64,000 nucleotides of DNA from a virus, in IMG/VR virus record IMGVR_UViG_3300008262_006986, positions 45,066-109,065 of that record. One strand, given 5' to 3'. The notes beneath the pieces are model-generated. The model saw only the letters and a list, made by a program, of their open reading frames with translations, was not told the origin of the DNA and did not search any database. Position 1 is the stretch's first letter. Each line of letters opens with the position of its first letter. This document shows positions 2,972-42,071 of this stretch, one piece after another. A program made the position numbers and the translations under genes.

Positions 2972-4300
2972 ATGATTGACTTGGAAGCCTTATGCGCTGA
3001 GTTTTTAAGTGTTGGTTCCAAAGAGCCTATTTTATTTTTAGACTGGTCCCCTTCTGATCCTGATTCAACTACCTTGGTTAATTTGGCCCTTAAAATTCGT
3101 TTACAGAGCATTTCTGGCTATAGTCGTACTCTGGACCTGAATTCGGAAAATTCCTTTTCTATTCTGCGTTTAATCGAGTCTGTTTTTTCTTCTAAGAAAA
3201 TTTTTATACTTGGATATAATTTTAAATCTTTATTTTCTTATTATCGTCGTGTCTGTCGATCTGAACTGGTTTTGACTAATGTAATTGATCTTTTTTGGTA
3301 CGAGTCTTATAGGTCAATTGAATCTAGTAAGGGTAATATGAATTTGGGCTTATCTAATTTTAAATCTCTGATAAAAGATGCAGAAACATACAAGCTATAT
3401 TCAAGTTACTATCGTGATTTAATAAGCAAAGTTGTTCCATTCATGGAATCTTTTCCTATATTGAATGATGATACTGGAACTATAGTCTATAGTAATTATA
3501 ACATTGAGGGGCAAGAGAATGGGAGGCTCTCATGTTCTTGCAATAAGAAGAATGTTTTCAATCCACATTCTTTAGGAGAAGAGAAGAAAAATCTTTTATT
3601 TTATAGTTCGAATTACAAGTATTTTATGCAATTCGACTATCGGAACATGGAAGTTGCGGTTTTGGCTGAATTGTCTGAAGACTCCGAGCTTCTTGATATT
3701 GTAAAGTCTCCTGATAATAATGTATATTCAAAGATATTTGAAAAGGTTACTGGGGTAAAGAATCACGAAGATGCAAAAAATTTGGGTAAAAAAATATTTC
3801 TCCCGCTTATATATGGGCAGACCAAGAATGGCCTATCTAAGTCATTAGACATATCAATAGATCAGGCAGAAATATATTTTAATAACGCCAAAAAATACTT
3901 CAAGAAAAGTTTTGATTATGTTGAAGCTGCACAAAATGAGGCTTCTTCTAAGGGTTATCTTGAAGACTGTTTCAGGAGAAAAAGATATTTCATAGATGGG
4001 GAATCATATAAGGCAAGGAATTTTATAATACAATCTCCTTCTGCTTTAATTTGTTTGGAATCGTTGTTAAAATTGTATAGAGAAGCTCAAGATATTTTCG
4101 CTGTTGCGTTTCATGTGCATGACGGATATTTCTTGGCAATTAAGAAAGACAGTATACAGGAAGCTTTTTATAGTGCAAAAAAAGCTCTTGAAGGTAAGTT
4201 GAACCTGATGCCAAATTTACAGTTAAAAACAACTGCAAAGTTGGGAAAAACGCTGGATAAAATGGTTTTACTTGAGAAAAGAAAAGAAGGTGTAATTTGA
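2972..4300 (+). CDS. polA: Family A DNA polymerase (Pol I-like), 442 aa
   Basis: The C-terminal half carries the three family A motifs. Motif A is 'FDYRNMEVAVLAELS' near residue 220, with the catalytic Asp. Motif B is 'NLGKKIFLPLIYGQTK' near 270. Motif C is 'FHVHDGYFLAI' near 380, where the usual HDE is HDG; the catalytic Asp is kept but the Glu is not. About 180 N-terminal residues replace the proofreading domain and show no intact exonuclease DxE motif, so proofreading is doubtful. It is short compared with bacterial Pol I (~900 aa). AGGA lies about 8 bases before the ATG. It starts an operon-like run with the sigma-like and helicase genes (4-base overlap). As a DnaE is also present, this enzyme may do gap filling or recombination synthesis. 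Confidence 0.85.
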   Translation: MIDLEALCAEFLSVGSKEPILFLDWSPSDPDSTTLVNLALKIRLQSISGYSRTLDLNSENSFSILRLIESVFSSKKIFILGYNFKSLFSYYRRVCRSELVLTNVIDLFWYESYRSIESSKGNMNLGLSNFKSLIKDAETYKLYSSYYRDLISKVVPFMESFPILNDDTGTIVYSNYNIEGQENGRLSCSCNKKNVFNPHSLGEEKKNLLFYSSNYKYFMQFDYRNMEVAVLAELSEDSELLDIVKSPDNNVYSKIFEKVTGVKNHEDAKNLGKKIFLPLIYGQTKNGLSKSLDISIDQAEIYFNNAKKYFKKSFDYVEAAQNEASSKGYLEDCFRRKRYFIDGESYKARNFIIQSPSALICLESLLKLYREAQDIFAVAFHVHDGYFLAIKKDSIQEAFYSAKKALEGKLNLMPNLQLKTTAKLGKTLDKMVLLEKRKEGVI

Positions 4301-34144: not shown

Positions 34145-34209
34145 TAAATTAAAATTTTACTACTGCTCACTAGATAGATTATGAAAAGCTAATCTATTTG
34201 AGGTGGGTT

Positions 34210-35205
34210 GTGGCGCAAGGTAAAAAATATGATCAAGATTTTGTTGTCAAAGTTTTTGAAGATGCTGGGTGCAAATTATTGGACAGGTATTGTAATGCAA
34301 AAAATAAATTAAAATATATTTGTGTTTGCAGAAATATTTCTTATATAAAACTAAGTAATTTTATGCAAGGAGGCAGATGTAAAAATTGTTTAAAAAATAA
34401 ATTCAAACTTAAATATGACTATGTCAAAAAATTTTTTGAAGATAGGAACTGTTATCTTCTAAGTGAAAATTACATAAATGCCAGAGCTAAATTAGATTAT
34501 ATTTGTGAGTGTGGCAATAAATCTAAAATAGTATTTGATAGTTTTAGAAAAGGTAATAGATGCAAAAAATGTGGTAACATAAAAAATTCAAAGAAGCAAA
34601 CTTTATCACAAGATCAAGTTGCAAAATTTTTCAAAGATCAAGGATGCAAATTAATTGGCTTATATAAAAAAGCAAGACTGCCAGTAGAATTTATTTGTAA
34701 ATGCGGACAGAATCATAAAAAAACTTTAAATAATTTCCAAAAAGTTCCTAGGTGTCCTGCTTGTTCTTTGTTAGGAAGAAGTGGTTCTCATCATTATGAA
34801 TGGATATCTGATCGTGAAAAGAAAAGGACTAATGATTTGTTTAGACAGAAATGCAGATCGATGATTAACATTTGCATAAGATATTTAAAAATAAATAAAA
34901 ACAAAAAAACAAAAGAATTGTTGGGCTATACCGCTGTGCAACTACGGGAACACATATTTAATCACAAAAACTGGCATAAATTAATAGGAAAAAAATGGCA
35001 CCTTGATCATATTTTTCCTATTAAAGCATTTTTAGACTATGGCATTAGAGACATTAAATTAATTAATTGTTTGGAAAATTTACAGCCATTGACAGTTGTT
35101 GAGAACTGTGTTAAAAATGACAACTATGATGCCTGTGCTTTTGAAAACTGGCTTCAATCAAAAGGTTTTAAGGTAAAATCATGTCCAACCAAGGGTCAAG
35201 TGTGA
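34210..35205 (+). CDS. HNH homing-type endonuclease with zinc-binding repeats, 331 aa
   Basis: The C-terminal domain has an HNH core: 'KKWHLDHIFPIKAF' (paired His), then 'LENLQPLTVVENCVKND' with the Asn. The N-terminal ~200 residues are three copies of a Cys-rich unit (F-x-x-x-G-C-K-L ... Y-I-C-x-C-G ... RC-x-x-C), each able to bind zinc and probably DNA. GTG 34210 follows GAGGTGG; the TTG at 34198 lies inside that site. It is a free-standing mobile endonuclease sitting directly at the 5' end of dnaE, whose ATG (35181) lies inside its last 25 bases. Its target may be the dnaE site now filled by the hairpin insert. Confidence 0.85.
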   Translation: MAQGKKYDQDFVVKVFEDAGCKLLDRYCNAKNKLKYICVCRNISYIKLSNFMQGGRCKNCLKNKFKLKYDYVKKFFEDRNCYLLSENYINARAKLDYICECGNKSKIVFDSFRKGNRCKKCGNIKNSKKQTLSQDQVAKFFKDQGCKLIGLYKKARLPVEFICKCGQNHKKTLNNFQKVPRCPACSLLGRSGSHHYEWISDREKKRTNDLFRQKCRSMINICIRYLKINKNKKTKELLGYTAVQLREHIFNHKNWHKLIGKKWHLDHIFPIKAFLDYGIRDIKLINCLENLQPLTVVENCVKNDNYDACAFENWLQSKGFKVKSCPTKGQV

Positions 35206-36602
35206 AGATAGTAGGTTTTGAACACCTACATCTTCACACAGACATACTGCCCCCGGCATAATTTAATGCCGGGGGCGCAAAAAACTATAGTCTTTTAGAT
35301 GGATTTGGCCAAGTTGAAGAATACGCAGAGCATTGGCACCACCATGGTCAGTTTCTCTGCATAAGTGATCATGGCATGCTCGGTGCTGTTCCCAGACAAG
35401 TAAAAGCTTGTGAACAAATTTGTGAACAACACGGAAAAAATAAGCTTAGTGCAATTTTTGCCTGTGAGTTATATGTCAACCGCATGCACTCCGAGCCTAC
35501 TCCTGATGAAGAGAGTAGAAAGAAATTCATGGACCAACTTGGTCCTGAAGAGCTTGAAGAATTCAAAGTAAAAGGCAGTCACTTACTTGCGATTGCCACA
35601 TCTAAACAAGGTTATTCCAATCTTGTTCAATTATCATCTTATGGTTTTCTGAAGGGTTTCTATGCGAAACCCCGTGTAAACTATGAGATGCTTCAAAAAC
35701 ATAAAGAAGGATTGATTTTTACATCTTGCTGTTATGCAAGTGAAATAGGCAGAACATTCGATAAAAAAGGGGAGGAAGCAGCTGAAGAAGTTTTAGTAAG
35801 ATATATCAACATGTTCAAAGGTCAGTTTTACTTAGAAATTATGATGTTGGATTTCAAAAAGCAAAAACCATATGATGTTTTCATTTTGAAAATGAAAGAT
35901 AAGTATAATCTTCCAATTATTCTTACTAACGACTGCCATTATTGCAAACAGGAAGATAGTCATTATCAAAGATTGATGCTGATGATTCAGACAAAAAGAA
36001 CTTTGCCAGAAATACAAAAGATGATTGAAGAAAATGAAAATCAAGATTTTTTTGAACTCCAAGACAGTAATTTGTGGATGAAAACAGAAGAAGAGCTTAA
36101 TGAGATGTGGCAAAAAAAATATAGTGATGTCATACCACTCGAAATATTTGAAGAAGCCAAGGCCACTACAGTTGCTATTTGTCAAAAAGCCAAGGGCGTT
36201 GAACTAGACAGAAGCATAAAATTTCCACTACAAGAGGAAGAAAAGAAAGCTCTAGCGCAGGCTGTCGCAGATGGATTGCGGTTTAGAAACATCAAGCCAC
36301 AAGGGGAATACGGCAAACGAGTTGCGGAAGAATTTGATATAATCACACGAAAGGGGTTTGCTAGTTACTTTCTAGTCCAGAAGATGATGACCGATGAGGC
36401 CAGAAGAGTTTGTCCTGAGCTTTTGGGTTGGGGAGATGGAAGGGAGGCTGTTGGCCCCGGAAGAGGTTCTGGTGGTGGGTCTTTGATTCTTTATTTATTG
36501 GGTGTCACCGATGTTGATCCGATACGACATGGTTTGCTTTTCTCAAGATTTTTGAGCGAGGCTAGAGGTGGAAAACAAATTAAGTTAAAATTTTCAAATT
36601 AG
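35181..36602 (+). CDS. dnaE: DNA polymerase III alpha (DnaE), N-terminal piece, in-frame stop in hairpin insert
   Basis: From ATG 35181 (AAGGT upstream) the frame encodes 'EHLHLHTD', the first PHP motif. A 42-base insert (35244-35285) with TAA at 35259-35261 follows, and then in the same frame 'YSLLDGFGQVEEYAEHW' and 'CISDHGMLGAVPRQ', which complete the PHP domain. No start codon lies between the TAA and ATG 35376. The piece continues to the polymerase motif 'GPGRGSGGGS' and ends at 'LLFSRFLSEARGG...', just before the catalytic Asp motif, which is on the separate 39540 gene. Expression needs recoding (bypass or readthrough) or starts at 35376 with a truncated PHP domain. 474 codons in all. 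Confidence 0.75.
35249..35276 (+). other. GC-rich hairpin insert carrying the in-frame TAA
   Basis: GCCCCCGGCAT (35249-35259), loop AATTTA, ATGCCGGGGGC (35266-35276): an 11-bp perfect stem, far richer in G+C than its surroundings. The stop codon occupies the top of the stem and the loop. The codon before the stop is GCA (35256) and an identical GCA (35277) follows the 3' arm in the same frame, the arrangement of matched take-off and landing codons in T4 gene 60. The full insert between PHP residues is 42 bases, a multiple of three. Confidence 0.8.
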
Positions 36603-36640: not shown

Positions 36641-37147
36641 ATGTATATTTTCTTTGAAAAGCTTTTAAATCAAAAACAATGCGATGAATTGAATCAAGCT
36701 GCTCTCCGTATGATGATGGAGAATAGATTGAGTCATGAGGTCGATAACTCACATTATGGCAACAGTTATGGGACAGCAAGGATTCCGTTATATGAAAAGC
36801 TTTTGCATGATTTGACTCCCCAAATTAAACAGGCAACTGGATTTAATAACATCAAAGAAGAAAACAGTTATACAAGAATTTATTATGATGGATCGAAGCT
36901 AAAAAAGCATAAAGATAGAGAAGGTCTTGATATAACTTTAACTGTTTGCACATTCAGTAATATCAACAAGCCATGGCCTTTATATGTTGAAACTGTAGAC
37001 GGCATCAAAGGATTTGAGACAAGAGTTGGCGATGGTGCTTTAATATTGGGAACAACGATGAACCATTGGAGAGATGATCTGCAATGCGAAAAACATCAAA
37101 TGGTAATACAATCATTTTATCATTGGAGATTTACAAATGCTTCTTAA
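36641..37147 (+). CDS. 2OG-Fe(II) oxygenase-like protein, 168 aa
   Basis: It is a compact double-stranded beta-helix protein. The iron ligands are likely in 'LKKHKDREGLDITLTV' (H-x-D) and 'TMNHWRDDL' (distal His), followed by 'VIQSFYHW' and an Arg for 2-oxoglutarate. It lies in the 2.9-kb block separating the two dnaE pieces. The upstream region has TATAATAG but no clear Shine-Dalgarno. It overlaps the next oxygenase gene by 11 bases, so the pair probably acts together. Substrate unknown. Confidence 0.7.
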   Translation: MYIFFEKLLNQKQCDELNQAALRMMMENRLSHEVDNSHYGNSYGTARIPLYEKLLHDLTPQIKQATGFNNIKEENSYTRIYYDGSKLKKHKDREGLDITLTVCTFSNINKPWPLYVETVDGIKGFETRVGDGALILGTTMNHWRDDLQCEKHQMVIQSFYHWRFTNAS

Positions 37148-37979
37148 AACATTTAGCGATGATTGGAAGTGGTGGATTTGGAATCATGTGAAAGCAGAAA
37201 AGAATAAAGAGAATCTATTCGTGATTCTCCTGAATCATGGCTTCTGTTGGGATGCAATAGCCAAAGAATTAAATTTCATGCCTTCCAATGTTAAAACTTT
37301 GATCAGAAGACAAACACAAAAAATTTTGGATAATGATGAAAAGCCTATTATTTTCCCTCTTTACAAGCCTTTAGCTGATAACCCAAGAGCACATAGAATA
37401 GATAATAACTATGTAGAGCTTTATGAAGTCGAAGACTTTTTTACTGATGAGCAATGTGATAGGTTTGTGCAAATTATCAAAGGTAATTTGACCAAGTCTT
37501 TGGTGACTAACCCAGAGGCAGAAGCCACCGTAAGAACAAGTAGAACTTCTTATCTTAGATTGCACGAAACACCAGAAAATATGGAAATGAACAAATATGT
37601 TCATGATTTTTTAAGAATTCCCTATGGGAATTCTGAAGAACCGCAAGGACAGTTATATGAAGTGGGACAAGAGTTCAAGCCACATAATGATTGGTTTGAT
37701 AAAAACTCTGCATATAATCAAGTTCATTTAGATAAGGGACAAAGGACTTGGACATTTATGGTTTATTTGAATGATGTCACGGCGGGTGGACATACCAAGT
37801 TTACTAAGATCGGGATAGATTTTGCCCCCAAGAAAAGGACCGCTTTATTCTGGAATAACATTTTACCAAATGGGGATGGTAATCCTTGGACAGAACATTG
37901 GGGCATGCCTGTCGAGCGTGGTGAAAAGGTAATTATTACGAAATGGTTCAGAGAGCATGATGGAACAAAACAGTCTTAA
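37137..37979 (+). CDS. Prolyl 4-hydroxylase-type oxygenase, 280 aa
   Basis: The N-terminal ~80 residues contain a small helical, helix-turn-helix-like segment ('GFCWDAIAKELNFMPSNVKTL'). The P4H-type catalytic domain follows: 'GQEFKPHNDWFD' (H-x-D), 'TWTFMVYLNDVTAGGHTKF', and 'TEHWGMPVERGEKVIITKWF' with the distal His and Lys for 2-oxoglutarate. Members hydroxylate proline in proteins. The Pro-rich linkers of the RCC1/Kelch proteins downstream are possible substrates, which is inference only. The 3' end overlaps a convergent gene by 4 bases. Confidence 0.8.
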   Translation: MLLKTFSDDWKWWIWNHVKAEKNKENLFVILLNHGFCWDAIAKELNFMPSNVKTLIRRQTQKILDNDEKPIIFPLYKPLADNPRAHRIDNNYVELYEVEDFFTDEQCDRFVQIIKGNLTKSLVTNPEAEATVRTSRTSYLRLHETPENMEMNKYVHDFLRIPYGNSEEPQGQLYEVGQEFKPHNDWFDKNSAYNQVHLDKGQRTWTFMVYLNDVTAGGHTKFTKIGIDFAPKKRTALFWNNILPNGDGNPWTEHWGMPVERGEKVIITKWFREHDGTKQS

Positions 37980-38608
37980 AGAAACATATCTTTTGTTCTT
38001 ATTTTATATTTGTTTTCTTTATCAAATATAGAAGGCCAAACTCTTTCTATACTCCATGGTTCGTGTCCTTTCCAAGAAAATGAACTCATGATTTTTTTAT
38101 AGAATGTGATTGGCTTGTTTCGAATATTATTTTTATGAACAATATACTGTGCTCCAGAAGCGTATAGAAAATTTTTCTTTGGAACTCTAAAAAATGTGTC
38201 GTGAAAATCTGCTGGATAGACTCGCATCGGACTAATTTTCTCTTGAGTTTCATTTAGTATTTTATCTGCGATTGCCCAGCAGCCATCGCTGAATTTGTAA
38301 AGTGGTTCTATGCTTTCTGGTATGCCGTGTAAAAGTTCTTTTGTTTTTGTATAGTGTTGAAATGGATTTCCCTGTAAGAAAATAGTGTATTCACTTAAGT
38401 TGTCATATTGAGTTATTATGTGATAAAGAATTGTGGTCGCTTCTCTTCCAATATTTGCAAGAGGAATAAAATCTCGATTGATGTTGTTTTGACCTTTATT
38501 ATAAATTTTGATTTTATGTTTAATGCCATTAAGCCATGACAAGTCTTCTTCAAATCTGGCTACTACTATTTCATACATATTAAATTTTAACACCCTGTTG
38601 ACTTGCAT
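37976..38608 (-). CDS. DUF3431-like putative glycosyltransferase, 210 aa
   Basis: The core 'YEIVVARFEEDLSWLNGI', 'LANIGREATTILYHII', 'YTIFLQGNPFQHY' and 'YASGAQYIVHKNNI' match the DUF3431 pattern, a family distantly related to glycosyltransferases and seen in phages and viruses. The family usually starts at 'MYEIVVAR', i.e. ATG 38578; the longer form from 38608 adds ten residues and sits 13 bases after a TATAATAG box on the minus strand. It lies in the block between the dnaE pieces. Confidence 0.65.
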   Translation of the reverse strand: MQVNRVLKFNMYEIVVARFEEDLSWLNGIKHKIKIYNKGQNNINRDFIPLANIGREATTILYHIITQYDNLSEYTIFLQGNPFQHYTKTKELLHGIPESIEPLYKFSDGCWAIADKILNETQEKISPMRVYPADFHDTFFRVPKKNFLYASGAQYIVHKNNIRNKPITFYKKIMSSFSWKGHEPWSIERVWPSIFDKENKYKIRTKDMFL

Positions 38609-39539: not shown

Positions 39540-42071
39540 ATGGAAAAATTGAAATCCCTACTTCTTGAAAGGAAGCATCTTTATCCTGAATTGTGTCTTC
39601 ATAAGAATTTTGAAAAAAGACTCAAATGGGAGTTAATCGAGGTTGAGGTTCAAGACCTAGAAGAATATTTTATCAAAATGTTTTATGAAGGTAAAAAATA
39701 TCCAAATAACGAAAACAATCTTTTAATATGTAAGCTTCTTGATATTGTTGATTATGTAAATCTTGATGAGGAACCATCGACAAAAAATGGGGAATATCCA
39801 GATGTTGATGTAGATTATTTGCCAATAGTTCGTGATTATCTGAAGAATACTTGGGCTCCTCAAACTTTTGGCGAAGACAAAGTATGCAATATTGGAAACT
39901 ATGGTACTTTTGGACTCAAAAGCACTTTTATTGATATGGCCCGTGTTCATGGGCTTGACAGATCAGAAATTCTTCAAATCACAACAAATTTGCGACTTAA
40001 AGATGATGAGGGGGAGGCTTTAACTTATCAGAAAGCTTTGGAGTTGTATCCTGAATTGAATGCATATTGTCAAAAGCATCCTGATGTGGCAGCAGCAGTT
40101 CAAAAATTATTACATCGCAATAGAAGCATGGGAAAACATGCTGGTGGATTGATACTCTGCAATCAACCCATTGATAAATTTGTGCCGTTGGTCAAAGGCT
40201 CCGAAGGAGAAGCTGTTTCTGCGTGGGTTGAAGGCTTGAGTGGTCAAGACCTTGGCCCAGTTGGCTTGATCAAATTTGACTTGTTGGTTGTAAGTAGTCT
40301 TTGGCAAATTGCATTAACAGTAAAGATGGTAAAACAACGGCACAGTTTGAAAAACATTTCTGCATTAGAAGGTCAATGGGATTGGAGTGATCTGTCTTAC
40401 TTGAATGATGCAAAATGCATGGAAATGGCTAATGCTGGTGATCTTAAATGTGTTTTCCAGTATGACTCTGAAGGTATCAGAAAATTAGCTAGAAAATGTG
40501 GAATGGATTGCTTTGATGATTTAGTTAACCTTGTAGCTCTGTATCGTCCCGGCCCTTTGAATCAAGGAATGGATGAGACATACACACTCAGAAAGCGTGG
40601 CAAACAGGAATATAAATTGCATCCTGTTATAGAACCAATTTTAGGTAAAACTTATGGCATTATGATTTTCCAAGAGGATGTTATGAAAATTCTTGCTGCT
40701 GTAGGCAAGATTCCTCTTCGTGATTGTTATGTCGTTATAAAAGCTATTTCTAAAAAGAAAATAGAAGCGTTTGGGAAATATAAAGACAAGTTTATTGAGA
40801 ATGGCCAGCTTGTTTTGGAAACTACTAAAGAAGAGGTAACAAAACTTTTTGATCAGATACAATCTTTCGCTGAATACGGTTTTAATCTAAGCCATTCCGT
40901 AGCTTATTCATATATTTCTGCTAGGCAGTTGTATTTAAAAGCACATTATCCTTTAGAATTCTACACAGCAACTCTACAATGTGAAAGTGATGACGAAAAG
41001 CTAAGGGACTATATCTCCGAGGCAATTAATCATGGGGTTGAAGTTTGTCCATTAGATATTAATTTGTCTAAGGAAACATTTAGCATATTTGATGGTAAGA
41101 TTTACATAGGTTTTTCTAACATCAAAGGTATAGGTGAGGATAAAGCCAAGCGAATTGTTGAACTCCAGCCATACGATGGCTTTGAAGACTTTCTTTCCCG
41201 TTTTGGAACCGAGGCAACTGTTCTAAGGGCTTTGATCCCTTTAGGAGTTTTCAAGGAAAACAATCCGGTTGAACTCTATAAATTTTGGTTATTATTTGCA
41301 GATTATCAAAAGATAGTGAAGGATAGACAAAAAAGATTTGAAGCCTCTTTGACTAAACTTGCCGAAGTCATCAAGGAAGCATTGCCAGAGCAACTGCATG
41401 TCATAAAGCTTGCGACACCCAAAAATATACAGATATTATCTGATTATATCGAAAGAAAGGATTTTGAAAATAAAGATCAATATATTTCATTGTTAGCAGG
41501 TGCTAAGAAAAAAGCTGAAGCAGCACTTAAACGATTTGCTGATAAGGCTCCTGTTAAGCCAACTTTGGAAACATTCGTCAGCGAGGAAGTAAAAATTGAC
41601 GATGCGAAGGTTTTGCCTTTACTAAATAATAGTAGGCTGGCTCAGGAGACATATTATGGTTATCCATGGGATAACCGTATTAGAAATGCAGCAGGTTATC
41701 AGCCGAACAAAAACTTTAACAATCTCAAACTACAAGATGAAGCAGGCGTTTTATGGTCAACAGTAATTTGTGAGATACTCGAAGTAAATATTAAAAAGTT
41801 CAAAAGTGGCAAAGGCTCTTTTGCTAGCTTGTCTGTTATGGATGATAATTTTGAGATGGGAAGGATAACGATTTGGGATGATGATTACCAAAGATTTAAA
41901 TCAGAATTAAAAAAAGGCAACTTAATTAGTATACAGGTTTGTCCACCATCTAATGGGTTTTCGACTTATACCTTTAAGTCTCCTCCAAGGCATAAAAGGT
42001 ATGAACTCCCAAAAGAAAAAAGTATGGATTATCGACTCGTATTGATAGAAGAAAGTAAAAAAGATGAGTGA
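39540..42071 (+). CDS. dnaE: DNA polymerase III alpha (DnaE), C-terminal piece, 843 aa
   Basis: After a ~86-residue N-terminal segment comes 'YPDVDVDYLPIVRDYL' (Asp88 and Asp90 aligned with the two catalytic Asp of PolIII alpha), then 'IKFDLLVVSSLW' (third Asp), 'LYRPGPLNQGMDETY', 'YGIMIFQEDVMKI', the fingers and 'FNLSHSVAYSYIS', a helix-hairpin-helix ('FSNIKGIGEDKAKRIVE') and a C-terminal OB-like domain. GAGG precedes ATG 39540, so it is translated on its own. With the 35181-36602 piece it would rebuild one polymerase, the palm domain being split between two chains. No intein motifs are seen. Confidence 0.85.
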   Translation: MEKLKSLLLERKHLYPELCLHKNFEKRLKWELIEVEVQDLEEYFIKMFYEGKKYPNNENNLLICKLLDIVDYVNLDEEPSTKNGEYPDVDVDYLPIVRDYLKNTWAPQTFGEDKVCNIGNYGTFGLKSTFIDMARVHGLDRSEILQITTNLRLKDDEGEALTYQKALELYPELNAYCQKHPDVAAAVQKLLHRNRSMGKHAGGLILCNQPIDKFVPLVKGSEGEAVSAWVEGLSGQDLGPVGLIKFDLLVVSSLWQIALTVKMVKQRHSLKNISALEGQWDWSDLSYLNDAKCMEMANAGDLKCVFQYDSEGIRKLARKCGMDCFDDLVNLVALYRPGPLNQGMDETYTLRKRGKQEYKLHPVIEPILGKTYGIMIFQEDVMKILAAVGKIPLRDCYVVIKAISKKKIEAFGKYKDKFIENGQLVLETTKEEVTKLFDQIQSFAEYGFNLSHSVAYSYISARQLYLKAHYPLEFYTATLQCESDDEKLRDYISEAINHGVEVCPLDINLSKETFSIFDGKIYIGFSNIKGIGEDKAKRIVELQPYDGFEDFLSRFGTEATVLRALIPLGVFKENNPVELYKFWLLFADYQKIVKDRQKRFEASLTKLAEVIKEALPEQLHVIKLATPKNIQILSDYIERKDFENKDQYISLLAGAKKKAEAALKRFADKAPVKPTLETFVSEEVKIDDAKVLPLLNNSRLAQETYYGYPWDNRIRNAAGYQPNKNFNNLKLQDEAGVLWSTVICEILEVNIKKFKSGKGSFASLSVMDDNFEMGRITIWDDDYQRFKSELKKGNLISIQVCPPSNGFSTYTFKSPPRHKRYELPKEKSMDYRLVLIEESKKDE

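Follow-up and report, generated by a model that had tools for sequence, protein, structure and literature searches.

In the 64,000-nucleotide stretch of viral DNA analyzed here (the window, part of a 109-kb viral contig), the dnaE gene is interrupted inside its PHP motif by a 42-nucleotide (nt) insert that is probably a mobile translational-bypass element resembling the one in T4 gene 60. It belongs to a family of about 45 phage contigs, representing some 34 distinct sequences, in which dnaE is interrupted.

The open reading frame (ORF) that begins at 35181 reads MSNQGSSVKIVGFEHLHLHTD, up to GAC at 35241-35243. Beyond that point the sequence and its translation agree with the preliminary description of this DNA, which had noted HLHLHTD, 42 extra bases (35244-35285) and YSLLDGFG in a single frame, a G+C-rich stem with TAA at its tip, a GCA codon (35256) that recurs in frame at 35277, and no in-frame ATG, GTG, or TTG from the TAA to 35376. 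The stem, GCCCCCGGCAT/ATGCCGGGGGC, is 11 bp long, or 12 bp with a U-G pair (35248-35277), the in-frame TAA occupies 35259-35261, and there is an out-of-frame ATG at 35266. Three things had been missed: an HNH gene overlapping dnaE at its start, the family of related inserts, and a 5' stem-loop located directly upstream of the insert and longer than the hairpin inside it. The stem-loop is made of codons for the conserved PHP strand and ends at GAC, the likely take-off codon. Folding of the region gives these two hairpins, with z scores from -8 to -11 when compared with dinucleotide shuffles. The features are listed in the table.

Table. Features at the interrupted dnaE of the window (positions counted from the first nucleotide of the window)
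Feature	Position	Strand	Remarks
HNH homing-endonuclease-like gene	34198..35205	+	PHROG 559/681 HNH endonuclease, E 6e-24 and 1e-18
dnaE leader ORF	35181..35243	+	Translation MSNQGSSVKIVGFEHLHLHTD; ends at the probable take-off codon
Internal Shine-Dalgarno-like AAGGG	35191..35195	+	Just 5' of the stem-loop; a role in landing is speculative
5' stem-loop	35195..35243	+	Core 35200-35239, 16 bp with one bulge; outer pairs GTC/GAC; fold z -11
Probable take-off codon GAC (Asp)	35241..35243	+	Last native codon; stem end tracks take-off across classes
Insert, 42 nt	35244..35285	+	Relatives lacking it include L006 and L022
Second hairpin, 12 bp, TAA at tip	35248..35277	+	L026 and L034 retain the stem although its bases differ
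Probable landing triplet AAC	35283..35285	+	Precedes the native resume codon; landing statistics
Remainder of dnaE N-terminal gene	35286..36602	+	Restarts TAT AGT (YSLLDG); Pfam PF02811, PF07733

The gene portion downstream of the insert encodes the PHP domain and the first part of the Pol III alpha palm domain. DnaE is split inside the palm domain into two genes, 35286-36602 (with PGRGS) and 39540-42071 (with the catalytic DVDVDY), separated by other genes that include a 2OG-Fe(II) oxygenase and a DUF3431 protein (37137-37979 on the plus strand and 37976-38608 on the minus strand). The N-terminal dnaE genes of L006, L007, and L010, the ones that were read, stop at the same point, and two separate DnaE pieces were also found in three further contigs. 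The full contig of the window phage has a second DnaE-like ORF (L164; contig 3300008267_013251, 31890-32558), PHP-less and of 573 aa, and for this reason the essentiality of the split dnaE in this phage is not certain.

The second hairpin was considered as an intrinsic transcription terminator and rejected, as it is followed by CAAAAAAC on the plus strand and AGTATGTC on the minus strand, with no T run. No match to the group I intron core (RF00028) was found in the window with Rfam, and a search for the window hairpin elsewhere gave matches in dnaE only. A blind scan of all collected loci for 12-bp hairpins abutting a stop codon, with open frames on both sides, gave 27 sites, 22 of them this dnaE site. 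The scan also found, on the minus strand of the window, a G+C-rich hairpin of 12 bp immediately followed by a stop codon (53633, counted on the reverse complement), which is probably due to chance or a terminator.

An assembly error had been put forward as one alternative. However, four other metagenome assemblies from different samples carry the identical sequence, so that five assemblies in all share the same insert inside the PHP motif, and close variants occur in more divergent phages; therefore, the insert of the window is not an artifact. The preliminary description had also proposed comparing dnaE among related phages. Collecting dnaE relatives from IMG/VR, together with a search for the pattern G[FY]EHLHLH with a stop codon after it, yielded the family described above and 35 distinct insert-free relatives. 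No DNA match to the insert site was found among INPHARED phages, no relatives appeared in the genome contigs collection searched, and the C-terminal dnaE gene used as bait gave few new loci.

Inserts occupy three neighboring sites, namely after HLHLH, after HLHLH[T/S]D, and before (L)DG, and measure either 5 to 8 or 40 to 47 nt, in all three frames and mostly containing a stop codon. In the first class (H), the apparent take-off codon CAC or CAT comes directly after HLHL, the stop is TAG or TGA, and the insert has 5, 6, 7, or 8 nt. The second (D) includes the window, L024, L061, L026, L034, L036, L063, and L042, with inserts of 40 to 47 nt that contain the second hairpin. The third (L; L046, L138, and L148) has CTC/CTT TAA CTT/CTA before DG, near position 3500 of these loci, an arrangement with the appearance of natural in-frame stop-hops. 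One locus, L064, combines an H element with a 46-nt hairpin at the L site. The stop codon directly follows the take-off codon in the H- and L-class loci and in L042 but not in the window, L024, L026, L034, or L036; L026 and L034 have no in-frame stop nearby. Deleting each insert restores the native sequence, and native codons always flank it on both sides.

The reading frame after the insert is strongly conserved. From the insert to the DHG motif, dN and dS are 0.03 and 1.6 for L138/L148, 0.08 and 2.3 for L043/L044, and 0.17 and 1.0 for window/L024. L110, which has neither insert nor HNH gene, differs from L152, which has both, by 61 synonymous and 15 nonsynonymous codons, with no stops; their identity after the junction is mostly 91 to 98%, lower in a few 100-column blocks, and their similarity ends at the insertion point. 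No internal start codon is common to all the insert-bearing loci: 14 of 31 have no ATG, GTG, or TTG in the resume frame 5' of LDG, and L133, L138, and L148 lack a usual start codon for 40 to 70 further codons. The purifying selection, the start-codon gaps, and the L110/L152 comparison together suggest, indirectly, that both sides are kept as one protein.

These data bear on two other explanations. A decayed PHP domain had been suggested, and the window phage does have its second DnaE-like ORF, while two relatives have PolA-like genes; nevertheless, that the genes have decayed and the phages depend on another polymerase is hardly credible given conserved frames and low dN/dS in many lineages, an insert identical in five assemblies, and a contig (L116) with the split DnaE only and no PolA match. 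Relatives with frameshifts, which the preliminary description would have counted against bypassing, do occur, but they are not decayed genes, since past the insert their frame shows strong conservation. It is also improbable that internal initiation or stop-restart yields a DnaE lacking its N-terminal residues, the leader being a separate peptide or a regulatory upstream ORF. This would fit the ATG at 35376 of the window and the ATG inside the hairpin of L024 and L061, which is in frame with YSLLDG; however, the window hairpin ATG is out of frame, the start codons mentioned above are lacking in nearly half of the loci, the intervening stretch is under purifying selection, and such a protein would lack the metal-binding HxH. 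Reinitiation at the hairpin ATG was rejected as a common solution, being in frame in L024 and L061 only, as was a -1 slip on the A6 run after it, which applies to the window class only.

The 5' stem-loop lies ahead of the inserts and is absent from insert-free relatives. Compared with synonymous recodings, the leader folds with z scores of -3 to -7 in most insert-bearing loci, whereas the average for insert-free loci is +0.4 (Mann-Whitney p 3e-9). It is weaker in L036 and L063 (z of -2 to -2.7 when the SD codons are counted in), and the 11-bp stem of the L class, which ends just before CTY, is a different one and less significant (z of -1.3 to -2.3). The 3' end of the stem tracks the insertion point, from the His codon in the H class to the Asp two codons on in the D class, and later still in the L class. 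Among 15 distinct H-class stems, 180 of 180 pairs are formed, while the same columns are 51% paired in insert-free relatives; four pairs are altered on both sides (16 cells), against 0 of 500 shuffles. G-U pairs are tolerated in these stems, so the selected form is probably RNA rather than DNA. The leader is also conserved as protein, since its loop codons (IVGFE) vary mostly synonymously. An in-frame ATG lies 5' of the stem-loop in 26 of 27 distinct elements, mostly 20 to 27 codons before take-off, and although this start exists, 24 of the 27 also have a Shine-Dalgarno-like sequence just 5' of the stem.

The preliminary description proposed that ribosomes either hop or read through the insert and that a hop would run from one GCA to the other. 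Bypassing is the best-supported reading. Simple stop readthrough is excluded by the 40-nt version of the insert in L024 and L061, which shifts the frame, and insert lengths in all three frames rule out a common frameshift or readthrough. An alternative code or readthrough could be entertained for the window alone, but besides the shifted frame of L024 and L061, TAG acts as an ordinary stop in these genes. As to the codons involved, take-off in the window is most likely at GAC, rather than GCA, with translation resuming at TAT (35286), because the upstream stem ends at GAC, the exact native HTD-YSLLDG results, and the second GCA of L024 and L061 is out of frame. A GCA-to-GCA hop is unlikely, since in these two loci it would end out of frame unless landing took place at GCG, and the extra residues ILPPAKN would remain. 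In spite of the in-frame recurrence of GCA in the window and the A6 run that follows the second hairpin, conventional recoding by programmed frameshifting or stop readthrough, with the GCA hop included, is very unlikely for the family, as it would need shifts into all three frames.

In 30 of 31 loci (47% expected), at least two positions of the triplet preceding the resume codon can pair with the take-off tRNA, a significance that is optimistic because the sequences are related. This triplet is identical to the take-off codon in few loci; in the H class it is NAY in 15 of 19 cases, and its position follows the length of the insert (7 or 8 nt), as expected if the triplet sets the frame. One exception is L142, where GTC is a poor match for His tRNA. 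The rarity of full matches speaks against bypassing, as do L142, a cognate CAC lying out of frame across the landing site of several HLHLH-class loci, the short leader, the lack of a stop next to GAC in the window class, and the second DnaE-like ORF of the window phage.

HNH homologs, some of them remnants, immediately precede dnaE in 15 of 32 insert-bearing loci versus 3 of 37 others (Fisher p 3e-4, or 2e-4 omitting three loci with little upstream sequence). The three insert-free loci with an HNH gene are L006, whose target has diverged, L047, where one base is deleted, and L052. The HNH gene of the window has N-terminal repeated zinc-binding-like modules and a C-terminal motif, DHIFPIKAF...LINCLENLQPL...N..K, that aligns with relatives; a search of the PDB gave no sequence match to the endonuclease. 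Identity between the window and L061 is about 95% from 35185 to the end of the insert and about 75% beyond it, but only about 50% in the body of the endonuclease. The sequences show that the endonuclease gene, the 5' stem-loop, and the noncoding insert, side by side where dnaE begins, have moved among phages as a cassette. Regarding L047 (~3460-3520), its dnaE has a T run one base shorter (GATTTTCTTTATTGG), with the HNH gene upstream and no 5' stem-loop, and the deletion may be a frameshift, slippage, or a sequencing error.

Two of the insert sites are occupied by group I introns (RF00028) in other phages, after HTD in L060 (3225-3487) and at FSL/LDG in L049 (3267-3492). L049 also encodes a phage tmRNA (7203-7561, RF00023). 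Intein-like insertions were found further down dnaE, before CELYV or CHYC, in L053/L102 (3300035670_013167), L052, and L066, and in L053 the same gene has an 8-nt bypass element as well. The introns at these sites, the exact native flanking codons, and the incomplete codon matching at the landing site would also fit seamless excision of the inserts from RNA before translation, by mini-splicing of a new kind or by cleavage and ligation beside the stem-loop. We consider this unlikely, given that there is no conserved splice-site sequence and that introns as small as 5 to 8 nt are not known to exist.

In the bypass reading, ribosomes would start at 35181 and translate to GAC, where the peptidyl-tRNA would leave its codon, aided by the 5' stem-loop, which would refold behind the ribosome, and in the D class also by the second hairpin lying in front. 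After sliding across the insert, the ribosome would re-pair loosely at AAC (35283-35285) and resume at TAT, giving the native HLHLHTD-YSLLDG. The same process in other phages would span 5 to 8 nt at CAY-stop or CTY-TAA-CTN. The insert would destroy the endonuclease's own target, as has been proposed for that of T4 gene 60. A broader and more tentative proposal, possible but doubtful as a whole, is that of a widespread HNH-linked bypass class in phage dnaE, natural stop-hops included, with landing set by mRNA geometry and not by full codon identity; the refolded 5' stem-loop, with the second hairpin where present, would loop out the RNA and bring the internal Shine-Dalgarno sequence beside the landing site. 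That this sequence, near the landing site once the stem is folded, has a role in landing is speculation.

To our knowledge, T4 gene 60 is the only phage gene proven to be read by bypassing. The homing endonuclease upstream of it is MobA, and its nascent-peptide signal, KKYK, is located 25 to 30 residues before take-off. KKYK is lacking in the dnaE leaders, which with 20 to 27 residues are too short for a tunnel signal of the gene 60 type but may carry a different signal. Gene 60 combines a 5' stem-loop that refolds behind the ribosome, a take-off hairpin, a stop after the take-off codon, and an upstream endonuclease, and its insert is thought to protect from cleavage and perhaps derives from a group I intron (PMC5009743, PMC11194080). 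The dnaE family shares with it a noncoding insert in a replication gene with a 5' stem-loop and an upstream endonuclease gene, the stop after the take-off codon in two of the three classes, and the hairpin at take-off in the D class. However, the dnaE gaps before the landing triplet range from 2 to 44 nt, the stem extends as far as the take-off codon, the match of most landing codons is limited to two positions, and the elements occur in many lineages at three sites instead of one gene. The earlier suggestion of a second, gene 60-like phage bypass locus holds as to its kind and is strengthened by the relatives, but its take-off and landing codons were probably wrong.

The byp elements of yeast mitochondria (Magnusiomyces capitatus) are short mobile inserts bypassed in coding genes, with many instances; in their relaxed mitochondrial system, they reportedly seem not to depend on mRNA context (PMC5009743). 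The dnaE inserts are likewise short, mobile, and numerous, but they come with a specific upstream stem-loop and are found in phages of bacteria. Synthetic stop-hops in Escherichia coli use matched codons on either side of a stop (Weiss 1987, cited in PMC5009743), and a 2016 recoding review stated that no natural in-frame stop-hop was known. L148 (CTT-TAA-CTT) and L046 (CTC-TAA-CTT) have the same 9-nt form but are natural, with a stem-loop ending just upstream. We found no report of bypassing in dnaE among open-licence papers.

T4 gene 60 alone cannot tell general bypass signals from particular ones. The dnaE family would add to the one proven phage case a series of some 34 natural variants, with three sites and gaps of 2 to 44 nt. 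The features kept in these variants are a 5' stem-loop ending at take-off and a loosely matched landing triplet, but not a long nascent signal, a second hairpin, or a fixed gap. The shortest elements are simple enough for tests in E. coli, and, with group I introns at the same sites in other phages, the proposed origin of bypass inserts in protection from homing endonucleases becomes testable.
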